Shown piece by piece: positions 1 through 34,161 of a DNA stretch of 47,091 nucleotides. The stretch is from the NCBI RefSeq assembly GCF_017471675.1, contig NZ_JAFUSK010000072.1, positions 1 to 47,091 of the forward strand, written 5' to 3'. The position numbers and the translations under genes are program-made. Within the stretch, counting starts at the first letter, position 1; the number at the start of each line of letters is the position of its first letter. The notes under the pieces were generated by a model. It searched no databases. It was not told where the DNA came from and worked only from the letters and a program-made list of their open reading frames with translations. This DNA is from Pseudobutyrivibrio sp. (GTDB lineage Bacteria > Bacillota > Clostridia > Lachnospirales > Lachnospiraceae).

Positions 1-3
1 ATA

Positions 4-205
4 TCTAACCCAAAATGCCGGGCCTATCAATTGACTCCTAGCTCCAGCTAGGTGGATCGCCGCAACTAATCTTTTGCCTTCCCCTGCGTGATGGAGGCCT
101 GACAGCCAACTAGAAATATAAGCATTCCATTTAAAGTAAATGTAGGTTCAAAAAGGATAAGTTAAATCGTACATCCCAGGTTAGAATGACTTCGGTATTT
201 ACTAC
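4..205 (-). ncRNA. ssrS: 6S RNA (RNA polymerase-binding regulatory RNA)
   Basis: Minus-strand RNA whose ends close in a fully paired 14-bp stem: bases 185-172 pair with 17-4, including G-U pairs. The sequence next to this stem (GGGATGTACG on the 5' side, CCGGCATTTTGGG on the 3' side) parallels the E. coli 6S RNA closing stem (GAGATGTTCG and GGCATCTCGGAG). The remainder is a long, irregular, interrupted helix of the right overall length, about 180-200 nt. A TATAAT box lies at 211-216 on the minus strand, so transcription should start near 205 and run through a short 5' hairpin. 6S RNA binds sigma-A holoenzyme by mimicking an open promoter. The 3' end may extend slightly past the window edge. 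Identification rests on architecture and remembered similarity, not a covariance-model search. Confidence 0.82.
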
Positions 206-28219: not shown

Positions 28220-28331
28220 TATTAAATCAATACAAAAATAGTGTATGCATTTTGTTCCATTCTCCGATGTTATATTTCACGCTTTTATAACATTTATAAA
28301 TATAATTTATAACATTAGGAGGTGCCAAGCT

Positions 28332-29228
28332 ATGCGAAATATAACAAAGATTAGAATATCACTTTCAATTATTGTATCTTTTTTATTTGTCTCATTCCTA
28401 CCAGAATTGTCATATCCCGTATTAGCTGAAGGAATTCCACAATATAGTGGACAGGCTTATTATGTAGTTAATAATAATACTCCAGCTTTTGCAGATTCAG
28501 ATAAAACGCGAACTGATGCATTTGAGACCTATTCTGAATTAGATGGACTCGGTCGTTGTGGAGTTGCTTATGCGAATATTAGTAAAGAAATTATGCCAAC
28601 AGAGGAACGCGGTGAAATAGGACAAATCCGTCCATCGGGTTGGCAAACTGTTAAATATAATGATTTGATCGATGGAAACTACTTGTATAATAGATGCCAT
28701 TTAATCGGTTATCAGCTTGCTGGCGAGAACGCAAATGAAAAGAATCTTATTACTGGAACACGCTATCTAAATGTAACAGGAATGTTGCCTTTCGAAAATG
28801 CAGTTGCCGATTACGTAACTAAAACAAATAATCATGTTTTATACCGAGTAACCCCTATCTTTGAAGGAAACAATCTTGTTGCAAGCTATGTGCAGATTGA
28901 AGCATGGTCCGTAGAAGATAATGGTGCTGGCATTAGATATAATGTTTTATGCTATAATGTTCAACCTGGTATCACTATAGATTATTCAAACGGAAATAGT
29001 GTTGCTTCCGCTCAACAAACTGTTGCTGTACCTACACCTAGCCAAACTAGTAGCAATACAGATTTACAGGCTCAAGCTTCTAGCGGTCAAACTGTATACT
29101 TATCTGCTACAGGAAGCTGCTATCACAGCATCAATAACTGCGGCCGTATGAACCCGGCAAAAGCTACTACTACAACAGAAGCAAACGCAGTTTCCCAAGG
29201 TTACAGTAAATGTTCAAAATGTTGGTAA
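28332..29228 (+). CDS. Secreted DNA/RNA non-specific endonuclease (EndA/streptococcal DNA-entry nuclease type)
   Basis: A 298-residue exported nuclease. The signal peptide covers residues 1-33 (basic start, hydrophobic core, cleavage near LAEG). The beta-beta-alpha-metal nuclease domain spans about 70-200, with the catalytic motif YNRCHLIGYQLAGE (His123; NRCH replaces the classic DRGH, as in many Gram-positive relatives). The metal-binding segment is NLITGTRYLNVTGM (Asn147). A Gln/Ser/Thr-rich linker (about 225-262) leads to a C-terminal domain with CYHSINNC and CSKCW, a Cys pattern seen at the end of many such proteins. The start is ATG 28332 with AGGAGGT upstream; an earlier in-frame ATG lacks a ribosome site. 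Likely role: nutrient scavenging or extracellular DNA degradation. AT-rich flanks and isolation suggest accessory origin. Confidence 0.9.
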   Translation: MRNITKIRISLSIIVSFLFVSFLPELSYPVLAEGIPQYSGQAYYVVNNNTPAFADSDKTRTDAFETYSELDGLGRCGVAYANISKEIMPTEERGEIGQIRPSGWQTVKYNDLIDGNYLYNRCHLIGYQLAGENANEKNLITGTRYLNVTGMLPFENAVADYVTKTNNHVLYRVTPIFEGNNLVASYVQIEAWSVEDNGAGIRYNVLCYNVQPGITIDYSNGNSVASAQQTVAVPTPSQTSSNTDLQAQASSGQTVYLSATGSCYHSINNCGRMNPAKATTTTEANAVSQGYSKCSKCW

Positions 29229-29235
29229 GTATATT

Positions 29236-29257
29236 GAGCAGGACTCGGGTCCTGCTC
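29236..29257 (+). terminator. Intrinsic terminator of the nuclease gene
   Basis: GAGCAGGAC-TCGG-GTCCTGCTC followed by TTTAATTT, 7 bases after the stop codon. Confidence 0.9.
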
Positions 29258-29263
29258 TTTAAT

Positions 29264-29870
29264 TTACCACTGTATAATAATATATTTTCTACCAGTGGTA
29301 ATTCAGGTCTCTTTTTACCACTGGTAGGATAGTGTTCACTTTTACAGTGGTAATAATGGCTTTACTTTACCACTGTATATAACATTTTATGCTTGACAGT
29401 GGTAATTTCAAAGATTTTTTACCACTGTATCTATGCCTATTCTCTCCACTGGGGTAATAAACCAGTTCAACTACTATCTCATACATAAAAATCAGGGTAG
29501 ATAGTAAGTATTTTCATCTCAACTACTATCCCCTGCAAAAAAATCATCACAGATAGTAAGTATTTTCAAATCTACTACTATCTCACAACAAAAATCTCCC
29601 TCAGATAGTAACCATTCCAAAATCTACTACTATCCCACTACAAAAATCTCCCTCAGATAGTAACCATTCCAAAATCTACTACTACCCCACTACAAAAATC
29701 TTCCTCAGATAGTAACCATTCCAAAATCTACTACTACCCCACTACAAATATCTCCCTCAGATAGTAACCATTCCAAAATCTACTACTACCCCACTACAAA
29801 TATCTCCCTCAGATAGTAACCATTCCAAAATCTACTACTACCCCACGGAAAAAATCCCCCTAAGATAGTA
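29264..29870. repeat. Tandem array of twelve ~52-bp inverted-repeat units in two families
   Basis: No ORF. Family A units start at 29264, 29315, 29367 and 29419, with arms TTACCACTG...CAGTGGTAA (9-11 bp) around loops of about 18-22 nt; the fourth is degenerate. Family B arms TACTATC...GATAGTA start at 29472, 29524, 29576, 29628, 29680, 29732, 29784 and 29836, exactly 52 bp apart and in phase with family A. Units B3-B7 are nearly identical over the full 52 bp, while A units diverge in loops and spacers. In B5-B8 the left arm is TACTACC, giving a C:A mismatch on the plus strand but a pairable G-U on the minus strand. The array lies between convergent genes (nuclease, hybrid kinase). Function unknown. 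Confidence 0.9.
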
Positions 29871-29871
29871 A

Positions 29872-29903
29872 CAGCGCCCAACCATCAACAAGGTTGGGCG
29901 CTG
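29872..29903 (-). terminator. GC-rich hairpin after the phosphorelay operon
   Basis: Perfect 12-bp stem CAGCGCCCAACC (29872-29883) with GGTTGGGCGCTG (29892-29903). No immediate U-tract on minus; GATTTTTTCC comes about 18 nt later. Probably the 3' end of the kinase operon mRNA, or a boundary of the dyad array. Confidence 0.6.
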
Positions 29904-29922
29904 CTTAACACTAATTATTAAA

Positions 29923-32900
29923 CTAGCCAAGTATTTCTTCCATCTTATCCCAATCAAAGCGCTTAAGGTACTTTTGCAGCTCCTTGAACTTAGCTGCATC
30001 GGCGTCGGGGAGCTTGTATGACATTACCTCATTAATTACCATTTCGGCGCCGTCGTAATCCATCTGTGATACAAGCTCTGTCAAGGCTTCGTAGGCGCTT
30101 GATAGTTCGTCAGCATCAATAGGTAACTTAGCCGCTGCATCAGTATCAGAAGCTTCCTCACCAGCCTTAACCCTTGAGAGGATTTCCTTAAAGCTTCTGT
30201 AGTCAGATAAAAGCTTAGGTGTATTGCTGTTGATGAAGGTTAAATCTTCCTTTTTGCCCGCTTCCTCTAGCTGCTCTGCTAGGGATGACAGCTCCATGGC
30301 ACCTACTATTCTTGCAGAAGATTTAAGGGCATGAACTTTTACAGTGTATAGCCTGATATCATTATCATTTAAAGCCTTTTCTATGGTGTCTGCATTTATA
30401 TCGATAGTATCGTAGAAATCAACTAAGCTATGCTCGTACACAGCAATTCCACCACTGTTTCTAATACCATCCTCCAGCACAATGGCATCTACTTCCTTAA
30501 CCCACTGTAAGTACTCTGGCAATTCCTGAGGTTCGTTTTGAACCTGCTCACTTGCTGGCTTTTTGATGATTTCATCCCCAATATGCTTCATGATAGTTGA
30601 CTCAAGGAATTTACTATCAATAGGCTTTGCTATATAACCTAAGAAGCCGTTTGTTTTATAGAACTGCTCAGCATCCGGCATAGCATTTGCAGTAAGGGCG
30701 TATACAGGAAGATTAGGATACAAGGCCTTTATCTTGCCCATTGTTTCAATACCGTCCATGCCAGGCATCAGGTGATCTAACAGCACTATATGGAACTTCT
30801 CTTTTTCAAGGATTGATAAGCATTCTTCACCACTTGCTGCTGTTGTAATATTAATCTGAGTAGGCTTTAGTAATCCTTTGATTACATTTAGATTCATTGG
30901 ATTGTCGTCTACTACAAGGATTCTTGCATTTGGCGCTATAAACTGAGGTACATAGAATCCCGGTGGAGCCTCCTCGATTCTCTCCTTAAATTTGCCAATA
31001 GGAGTAGGGTCAGTAATCTTTTGTTTAAAGGTAAATATAAACTCTGAACCCTCTCCATATACACTTTCGCACCATAGCTTTCCGCCCATGAGCTCAGCAA
31101 ATCTTCGGGAAATATCAAGTCCTAAGCCTGTGCCTTGAATTCCGCTGTTCTTCTTTTCATCTAAGCGCTCGTATGCGGTAAACAGCTTTTCCAAATCCTC
31201 TGTTCTAACACCTATACCTGTATCTTTAACTGATATTCTAACATCGCAGATATCATCAACAATACTTTCAACCAAAACTGTTAGTGTAAAGCCACCCTTT
31301 TCAGTATACTTAACCGCATTTGTTAAAAGATTTAATACTATCTGCTTAACCTTGCCTCCATCACCATATAGAACCTTTGGGATATTCTCATCAATGTTAA
31401 CATCAAAGCTTAAATCCTTCTGCTCGCTTCTTACTCTAATCATGGTAATGATTGCACGAAGCTGGGTCTCAGGCTCGTAGTCCTGCTCAACCAAATGCAT
31501 CTTGCCAGATTCAATCTTTGAAATATCAAGTATCTCATTTATAAGACTAAGAAGGGACTCAGTAGCCGTACGAATATCCATGGCGTTATTAATAACAGTC
31601 ATAAGATATGGCTTTGGAACCCCTTCTGGATTCTCCCTGAGAATCATTTCGTCCATACCCATAATAGTGTTGATAGGGGTACGAATCTCATGAGAAATAT
31701 TTGCAAGGAAACGGCTCTTAGCGCTATTTGCTCGCTCCGCCTCATCCTTTGCTGCCTGTATCTCATCATACTGACGACGAATAACAGTCCAGGTCATAAC
31801 ACGCCAAACAACAAAACCTGCAAATACTGCAAGAAGAATCAATAGTACAACTCTTACAAGGGTGCGTTCAAAAAACATTGGCTGCTTAACAAGCTTATAC
31901 GTATCATCAATAAGCACCTCAGATGTAGATTCATCAAGTATCTGAATATGTAAGGTGTAGTTACCATATCTCATTCCAGTAAATTCCAAGGTTGACATTG
32001 ACTCCCTGTGAATAGTAAATCCAGGGTCGGTACTATTTTCTAGAAATACTCTAACAAGTGGATTTGTCATAGAATAGTCCAAAACTGCAGGATTAATCTG
32101 GACACGTCCATTGGAAGCAGGAATGATGTATGTTCCATCTAATTCAGGTGCAAGGTTTACATCATCACAGCTTATCCTAGTAACACCCGTTTTGATTCTG
32201 ACATTGCCTGACTTGTAATCATTAATGTTTACTAAAGATACGCCAGTCATTCCTGCAATATAAAGATTTCCATCATCATCTATTGCACTGTATTCAGAAA
32301 GGATCGGCATACTTGTAAGACCATTGGCAAGTGTAAGCAGCCTATAATCCTGCACCTCATTATTTAACATCTCCTCTGCTTTTACCACGTAAATACCGTT
32401 GGATGCTAATACCCAAAGTCCATCATTGTTATCAAAGAAGATATTATCATTATTGTTATAAGGGAAGGTGCTTACATGAGTAATCACCCCATCCTTCATA
32501 TACTCAATACTATTAGATGTAACTATCCAATAAAGCTTACGCTTTTCATCCCATTTTATTCTATTAATTACATCACTTGTAAGTCCATCACTCTTACCCA
32601 GCTTTGTAATATAATCGCCTTTTACCACATAGATTCCATCTCCATCTGTGGCTATGTAAACCTCACCTTCCTGGCCAGTCTGCAAATCCAAAAATACGGT
32701 GTTCTTTATACCAGAGCTTTTGTCAATGCTTCCTACCACCTTAAAATCCTTAATCACGGCCATACCGCCATTGGTAGCAGCAACGATTGTGCCATCCTTA
32801 GCTTCATCTGTACACCTAACCTCATTGCTAGGCATACCATCTGCTTTTGTAAAATTAATGATAGTGCCATCTGCCTTTTGACAGACTACACCTAGACCAT

Positions 32901-34161
32901 TTGTAAAGGTAGAAATCCAAAGATTATTATTAGAATCTTTTGCCACATCTCTTACCTTGGCATTTCCCACGTATTCAGTCAACGCTGTTTCTTCTACAGT
33001 GGTCTTATCCTTGAGATAAATCAAACCTTCATTGGTGCCAATATACAAGGAATCATTATAAAGACATGTGGAATTAACCACCAAATCTTCAATTCCTGCC
33101 TCGGCCGTCACATTGGTGAAATTGTTAGAAACCAGCTTCATAACACCCTGGCGTGATGATGCAATCCAAATGTTTCCTTGATAATCAGCCGTCATCATTT
33201 CTATGCCACTATTTATAGGTGTATTATCTATTACATGAAAGCTTTCATCCTCATCCACATAACCAAATGCGCTTTCCGATGCAACCCAAATGCGATCACA
33301 GGCAGACATAATCCACTTGATTGTATTTAAAGGTGCAACGGAAATTTCCTTCATATCCTCAAGCTTATCGCCATAATTTCCGTAGTATAGCTTATCAGAC
33401 TTAGTGCCAATATAAACTTTCCCATCATTAGTGCTGTCAGCATAGATGTTTGAAATATCAATATCTCCTAATGAATCTCCTGCATAATATGAAGATAATT
33501 GACATGCATTAATAGAAAAGATAGCTCCGGTTTTGGTGTAGCCATAAATGGTACCGTCCTTGCCAGAATCCATCCTTAAGATTCGTTCGCTATTTATTCT
33601 GTCATCATCCAAGTGACAGAGATTTTCGTTGGTATCAACATAGGCAATACCCTCAGTAGTTCCTATGAAGACATTTCCAGCCTCATCCTCTGCAAATGTA
33701 CGTATAGATGAAGATGGAAGCCCTCCCTCAGTTGTTAAATGAACTGCTTCACGATAGGAGTTAAAATATACAACTCCGTTATCATTAGTTCCTACCCAGA
33801 TTCGTTTTTTTGAATCCTCAAAAAGACCTCGCCCACTGGTAAGCCCTTCAGTATTTGTAAATCTAAAAAAGCTGGAACCATCATATCTAATGATTCCACT
33901 GTATCCGCCAATCCAGATATAGCCATCTGAAGCGCCTATAATGAAATTAGCCTCAGATGTAGGAAGCCCATTTTTGGCATCATAAATTTGAGCATAGTAG
34001 CCCATATTATCAAGCTGCTTCGTTGCAGCATAACCTCCGCCAATATTTACTTTCCCCTCTATAGCTGTGGCTTCCTTAGCAAAGCTTGCATTAGCTTGCG
34101 AAACAGCAAATGCAAATATCAATGCAATAAGAGCACATACACTACCTGTCTTTTTTCTCAT
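29923..34161 (-). CDS. Giant hybrid sensor histidine kinase with two-component propeller, REC and HPt domains
   Basis: A 1412-residue one-piece phosphorelay. Signal peptide (1-29); about 14 blade-like Reg_prop repeats forming extracytoplasmic beta-propellers (about 50-690, e.g. [32 protein letters not shown]). A Y_Y_Y-like domain (about 700-760); one TM segment (about 765-785). HisKA with [15 protein letters not shown] (His near 825); HATPase_c ([33 protein letters not shown]). Receiver with [13 protein letters not shown] and [11 protein letters not shown] (Asp near 1125); C-terminal HPt with [12 protein letters not shown] (His near 1277). The layout resembles Bacteroides HTCS sensors of glycan breakdown products, but lacks the AraC output domain. 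Third gene of an operon with a receiver protein and a second hybrid kinase. Ligand unknown; a carbohydrate is a guess from propeller precedent. Confidence 0.93.

Follow-up and report, generated by a model that had tools for sequence, protein, structure and literature searches.

The window analysed here, a 47,091-nucleotide stretch from Pseudobutyrivibrio sp. (contig NZ_JAFUSK010000072.1), contains between two convergent genes an array of twelve inverted arm pairs (dyads) belonging to two families, A and B. Our data indicate that arrays of this kind are very probably double-stranded DNA sites for cognate nuclease-like proteins. The explanation that we favour as a whole, and to which we give somewhat better than even standing, is that the window array is a distal platform of nuclease sites with two specificities and a role in recombination. 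That arrays and nuclease act in recombination is, taken by itself, a tentative proposal. The evidence comprises the pairing of genes with arrays, the co-divergence of arms and proteins, helical phasing, selection on arms, a lack of RNA-type covariation and the occurrence of arrays at rearrangement boundaries, all apparent at the level of sequence; from it we infer binding, dimers on dyads, cooperative assembly on one face, nuclease activity and recombination.

The window array and its proposed cognate proteins

The array extends over positions 29264-29871 and comprises twelve units, A1–A4 followed by B1–B8:

29264..29301, no strand: A1 dyad unit, arms TTACCACTG/CAGTGGTAA, loop 20
29315..29353, no strand: A2 dyad unit, loop 21
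29367..29405, no strand: A3 dyad unit, loop 21
29419..29457, no strand: A4 dyad unit, degenerate 3′ arm with 2 mismatches
29471..29507, no strand: B1 dyad unit, starting 52 bp after the A4 start, in phase over the A/B border
29523..29559, no strand: B2 dyad unit
29575..29611, no strand: B3 dyad unit
29627..29663, no strand: B4 dyad unit
29679..29715, no strand: B5 dyad unit, 5′ arm CTACTACCC, uncompensated
29731..29767, no strand: B6 dyad unit, 5′ arm CTACTACCC, uncompensated
29783..29819, no strand: B7 dyad unit, 5′ arm CTACTACCC, uncompensated
29835..29871, no strand: B8 dyad unit, 5′ arm CTACTACCC, uncompensated

An earlier note on this DNA had described twelve regular units whose spacing persists across the family boundary. 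All twelve were found, with starts 52 bp apart ten times (A4 to B1 included) and 51 bp apart once, and the 52-bp period was returned by both a repeat search and Tandem Repeats Finder; the near-identity that it had noted among B3–B7 amounts to 48-52 of 52 bases. Its account of the arms needs revision. The family A arm is TTACCACTG and that of family B is TTACTATCT, and dyad arms are indeed present in every unit, but their pairing is uneven: A1–A4 carry TTACCACTG/CAGTGGTAA, paired at 9 of 9 positions in A1–A3 and with two positions unpaired in A4; B1–B8 carry (C/T)TACTATCT/AGATAGTAA, the 3′ arm AGATAGTAA being perfect in all eight and the 5′ arms bearing one to three uncompensated changes. The TACTATC arms ascribed to all eight B units are exact only in B1–B4, because the 5′ arm of B5–B8 has drifted to CTACTACCC with no answering change in the 3′ arm, leaving 3 of 9 positions unpaired. 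Nor are the two families without a common arm sequence: both fit TTAC[CT]A[CT][CT][GT] and so are related, and what had been taken for compensated replacement of the stem is more readily explained by two paralogous proteins, each with half-sites of its own.

The genes for these proteins lie elsewhere in the window's genome (G000; 3.10 Mb in 92 contigs; C-, L- and G-numbers denote contigs, loci and genomes). The A-type protein (P0002, 272 aa) is encoded on C15 and the B-type protein (P0001, 263 aa) on C7, each gene with its own array directly upstream; the two are paralogs with 38% identity. In both, the N-terminal region is predicted to form a helix, three strands and a long helix, and the C-terminal domain is a probable Vsr/PD-(D/E)XK-like nuclease domain in which the key acidic residues are kept. 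E171, D201, E216 and H217, conserved in 104 of 104 homologs, and K233, conserved in 101, are the probable catalytic residues. The protein family has no Pfam match above curated cut-offs and no NCBIfam match. When 25 aligned homologs were scanned against Pfam at E<=0.1, neither a Y1 transposase nor a ToxN-type match appeared; 18 families were matched, each in one member. The nuclease domain is shared with the PADLOC candidate defence proteins PDC-S68 (about 1e-23), PDC-S69 and HEAT_CxxC_PD-DEXK. The same domain also occurs in viral contigs (L454-L462), the match being restricted to the C-terminal part.

Of 397 genomes sampled across 334 genera of the taxonomic family, 121 (in 108 genera) encode a homolog. 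Among 398 genomes of the phylum 12 matched, 5 of them at full length and all from the same taxonomic family; the other 7 matches begin at model position 75 or later. We examined 100 homolog loci, 98 with distinct proteins, calling an array where at least three dyads shared an arm (upstream window, 800 nt). An upstream array accompanies 73 of the 98 distinct loci, compared with a downstream array in 7 of 97 and arrays in 0 of 291 shuffles; when the proteins are grouped into 31 clusters, 20 include at least one protein whose gene has an upstream array, and 6 at least one with a downstream array. Arms vary from homolog to homolog, and arm likeness tracks protein likeness (rho 0.22, p 0.001): arm sequence and protein evidently co-diverge. 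The tetranucleotide TTAC/GTAA recurs inside the arm in 30 of 58 arm consensuses (shuffle maximum 16).

The linkage is also seen at the level of whole genomes. Among the 29 genomes of the genus, 14 encode an A-clade protein (46-100% identical to P0002; next matches 40%), and all 14 have at least five exact A dyads; 14 genomes without the protein have at most one, and G021 (L261), with 12 exact A dyads and no A-clade protein, carries orphan arrays (association p 2e-7). A protein with 60% or more identity to P0001 is encoded in six genomes, all of which have at least four B dyads; so do three (G006, G023, G025) of the 23 without it (p 2e-4). Part of this linkage is built in, because the gene carries its upstream array; dispersed arrays add to it, G012 having three A places of which one is at the gene.

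Probable double-stranded DNA sites on a helical grid

Unit spacings of up to 130 bp fall into clusters (50-54, 61-65, 70-75, 82-85, 93-97 and 100-108 bp, with singles at 113, 126 and 128), and their periodogram has its maximum at 10.5-10.6 bp, the phase being close to zero (R 0.79, 113 spacings). The 65 spacings above 56 bp give R 0.74, against a null maximum of 0.43 in 2000 trials. With each class counted once per protein cluster R is 0.67 (26 long spacings; Rayleigh p about 8e-6 at 10.5 bp), a value that barely exceeds the null maximum of 0.66 when the period is left free. The proposal that the units lie on the same DNA face thus gains support – spacings across homologous arrays are multiples of about 10.5 bp – and this quantisation supports the protein-binding array, one of three options that the earlier note had offered. 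Of 150 family B linkers, 144 are 15 bp long, 4 are 5 bp and 2 are 14 bp. Four composite A/B arrays were seen, one of them in the window; units on either side of their A/B border are spaced at 52 or 64 bp, so that sites for different proteins also stay roughly in phase; read in the opposite direction, the composite array at L335 has a border spacing of 50.

The second option was a string of RNA hairpins in a 3′ untranslated region; such a string might also be the RNA antitoxin of a type III toxin–antitoxin system. In such systems tandem repeats lie directly upstream of a nuclease gene, a layout that the 73 loci with upstream arrays resemble, but the protein family here is another one and the evidence points to DNA. 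In 59 upstream arrays with at least four units, arm positions had changed on one side only in 192 cases and on both sides in 19, where 15.4 would be expected were the sides independent; 11 of the 19 two-sided changes are complementary, compared with a shuffle mean of 7.6, and 90 of 1000 shuffles attained this number. Compensatory change in these arrays is therefore no more than chance would give, and on the sense strand of 73 arrays the excess of G.T (90) over A.C (66) is not significant (p 0.065). The quantisation of spacing at the DNA helical repeat, the lack of an Rfam match to the array at gathering scores, the unpaired positions in the arms of B5–B8, and the location of the window array after the terminator-like hairpin of its left-hand neighbour also tell against RNA hairpins, which we regard as highly improbable.

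The sequences also show selection on the arms. When G000 is compared with its relative Pseudobutyrivibrio sp. OR37 at two gene-linked arrays and at the dispersed array of cobI, the pooled identity is 264/288 in arms, 186/304 in loops and 120/194 in linkers (arms above loops and linkers, p 5e-19 and 2e-15); the cobI array alone gives p 0.005 against OR37 and p 0.0006 against G025. Between G000 and G008 the C28 array shows 96, 88 and 93% identity in arms, loops and linkers, and the C11 array 59, 54 and 58%, which reflects either an alignment failure or an exception; in the OR37–G008 and G008 C2 comparisons the sequences are too similar throughout for an arm–loop contrast. These data bear on the third option, an expanding minisatellite. 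The near-identity of B3–B7 and the variation in unit number among loci fit such expansion, but elsewhere loops and linkers differ between units and arms are conserved between species, gene-linked B arrays hold 7+7 units in three species, and neither co-divergence with the protein nor helical phasing is expected of a neutral repeat. A minisatellite devoid of function, barely credible to us, is contradicted for the family as a whole, and individual arrays may be decaying.

Independent arm changes, arm conservation and phasing together argue for double-stranded DNA half-sites on one helix face and not for RNA hairpins. In our proposal the window array serves two proteins as a distal landing platform: the A arms would be bound by the A-type protein from the C15 gene and the B arms by its B-type paralog from the C7 gene, with one dimer per inverted arm pair. 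Complexes on neighbouring units, being whole helical turns apart, would lie on one side of the DNA, implying that they assemble cooperatively or bend the DNA in phase.

The chief rival to this platform is an autoregulatory or sequestering operator, in which the protein is held on the upstream array and titrated by dispersed arrays, a toxic nuclease being kept inactive or its gene repressed until release is triggered by, for example, phage attack or DNA damage. Cooperative repressors use phased sites, and the helical phasing suits an operator; so do the position of the array (the distance from its end to the predicted start is at most 60 nt in 35 of 73 loci and at most 100 nt in 48), the presence of several paralogs with differing arms within one genome, and the domain shared with PDC-S68. 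However, sigma-A-like promoters show no enrichment over the final 140 nt (24 of 73 loci exceed their own shuffle mean), dispersed arrays are not consistently upstream of other genes, and both neighbours of the window array end towards it. On balance we think an operator rather unlikely.

Dispersed arrays and rearrangement boundaries

Allowing up to two mismatches, the B dyad occurs at 61 places in G000 and the A dyad at 18, against 2 and 2 for reversed-pattern controls; the arrangement is beyond chance and not unique to the window, and further A and B arrays lie on other contigs. A third family, with TGCATCC arms, is represented in G000 by five exact units at its gene (C21), two on C24 and five on C49 (control 0). 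Of 61 genomes searched, 9 contain the exact B pattern at least four times and 15 the exact A pattern at least five times. All A- or B-rich genomes fall in the one genus of 29, the 32 genomes outside it holding at most 1 (B) and 2 (A) exact patterns; B arrays are also found in Pseudobutyrivibrio sp. OR37.

We examined 23 cobI loci within the genus. Four of them (G000, G025, G015, G006) carry the array; G023 and G008, with cobI proteins that share 96-97% identity with the G000 protein, lack it. In G025 (L331:2851-6622) two array copies enclose 3.77 kb where G000 has one array. The insert holds a CdiI-family immunity gene (Pfam 5e-21) and small open reading frames, like toxin–immunity cassettes, and the points where homology to G000 stops and resumes lie at most a few bases from the edges of the arrays. 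With 85.8% identity, the copies are roughly as distant from each other as each is from G000; this fits a cassette that brought an array with it, and not a fresh duplication. G008 has a pair of arrays 2.26 kb apart, and 1.4 kb of the DNA between them matches, at 99.7% identity, a segment across the neighbour gene of the single array in G025. The segment with VanZ-like and CAAX-protease-like genes (L306:3767-5180), 99.7% identical between G008 and G025 compared with 92-96% for the neighbourhood, is placed differently relative to the array in the two genomes, suggesting recent transfer or transposition.

Arrays of different families also occupy equivalent positions. One locus, with flanks that are homologous in the three genomes, holds five A units and a degenerate B in G000, a single A followed by at least five B in G008, and six A and one B in G025; here A and B units replace each other. 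At a second site the A array of G012 lies within about 10 bp of a flank that is 33-38 bp from a B array in G025 and G008; in G019 about 0.65 kb of extra DNA intervenes.

One reading of this dispersal is that the arrays are selfish repeats whose nuclease copies its own units round the genome, as proposed for REP and its transposase. Arrays stand away from the gene in all five genomes with places listed (G000, G008, G012, G019, G025), three 4-unit arrays in G008 are 78-96% identical with two of the three pairs sharing little outside the array, and the cobI array comes and goes between close relatives. Yet arm conservation in that same cobI array is unlike neutral debris, and the A and B genes retain homologous flanks across species; we consider a selfish repeat quite unlikely.

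Under the platform reading, the array-bound nuclease would nick or break DNA, and arrays would become junctions at which dispersed copies recombine and cassettes bearing an array integrate. The protein-plus-array pair has diversified into many versions in this clade, copies of at least three families being dispersed in intergenic spaces. Ordinary homologous recombination, without the nuclease, could also be the source of the junctions. A bolder and unlikely extension is a DNA-exchange system in which the nuclease opens phased arrays and circular or foreign cassettes with a matching array integrate, leaving array–cassette–array. The G025 insert would be an example, and arm families would be separate exchange channels, two of them served by the window array.

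Several features accompany the arrays. A 127-bp hairpin-rich repeat (L225:2068-2194; G000 and G019 copies 100% identical), found beside arrays at L222, L302 and L320 (94-100% identical) and L301 (81-83%) too, lies within ~190 bp of several B arrays; it is perhaps a small mobile element favouring array edges. A-family arrays stand at contig ends at L223 (C31 start), L228 (C36 start) and L226 (C73 end), C31 and C36 having in common a ~140-base end beside the A array that resembles the end of a repeated insertion sequence.

The genes flanking the window array are as previously described, with Endonuclea_NS_2 (Pfam 1e-24) on the left and HATPase_c, Response_reg and Hpt domains on the right:

28245..29228, + strand: DNA/RNA non-specific endonuclease (Endonuclea_NS_2), left neighbour, not homologous to the cognate proteins
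29236..29257, + strand: terminator-like hairpin after the left gene, directly before the array
29872..29903, no strand: perfect 12-bp inverted repeat (gap 8 nt) lying between array and kinase stop codon
29893-29909, + strand: weak terminator-like site overlapping the 12-bp inverted repeat
29923..34161, - strand: hybrid histidine kinase, right neighbour, convergent with the left gene

Positions 29150-30000 thus hold two terminator-like sites, against a shuffle mean of 0.3. Neither neighbour is the partner protein of the array, and tblastn with the A-type and B-type proteins gave no match in the whole window at E 1. The sole Rfam match in the window at gathering scores is a 6S RNA (RF00013, 73 bits) at positions 3-185, minus strand.

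Relation to known systems

Helically phased sites beside the gene for their binding protein are familiar from iteron arrays upstream of plasmid rep genes and from partition centromere arrays; here, by contrast, the protein is nuclease-like, the sites are dyads and not direct repeats, and copies are dispersed. CRISPR arrays consist of near-identical direct repeats with cas genes, and the present units are inverted pairs with variable linkers. The likeness to PDC-S68, PDC-S69 and HEAT_CxxC_PD-DEXK lies in the common C-terminal nuclease domain, the PDC-S68 match being confined to the end of ~1200-residue models.

The closest parallel is the REPtron, a TnpA-REP transposase with cognate REP/BIME palindromes. 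As described (PMC8266576), it likewise places a rather housekeeping-like gene beside cognate tandem palindromic repeats, with more copies in intergenic spaces and with co-evolution of enzyme and repeat. The differences are that the enzyme here is Vsr/PD-(D/E)XK-like and that of the REPtron HuH (Y1); that separated dyads, independent arms and helical spacing point to double-stranded DNA here, whereas REPtron repeats are single-strand hairpins; and that a genome here carries several families. The REPtron palindrome is preceded by GTAG; the GTAA/TTAC of our consensuses lies inside the arm. The system would work most like a REPtron, yet as far as the present tests reach it departs from it in two defining features, HuH protein and hairpin repeats. 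The EDxHD (Vsr-like) homing endonuclease I-Bth0305I (PMC3943268) is set apart by the arrays of the present system: 3-14 intact site pairs adjoin the gene, and arrays are scattered over the chromosome as well. Searches confined to the open-licence PubMed Central literature found no earlier description of the system.

The protein family thus has, for the most part, its own DNA recognition array beside the gene, and supplies dozens of natural protein–site pairs from which a recognition code could be read and tested. Helical phasing, here read out of genome sequence, suggests a nucleoprotein structure of higher order. If arrays do steer recombination, this would help to explain the movement of cassettes such as those carrying immunity genes.
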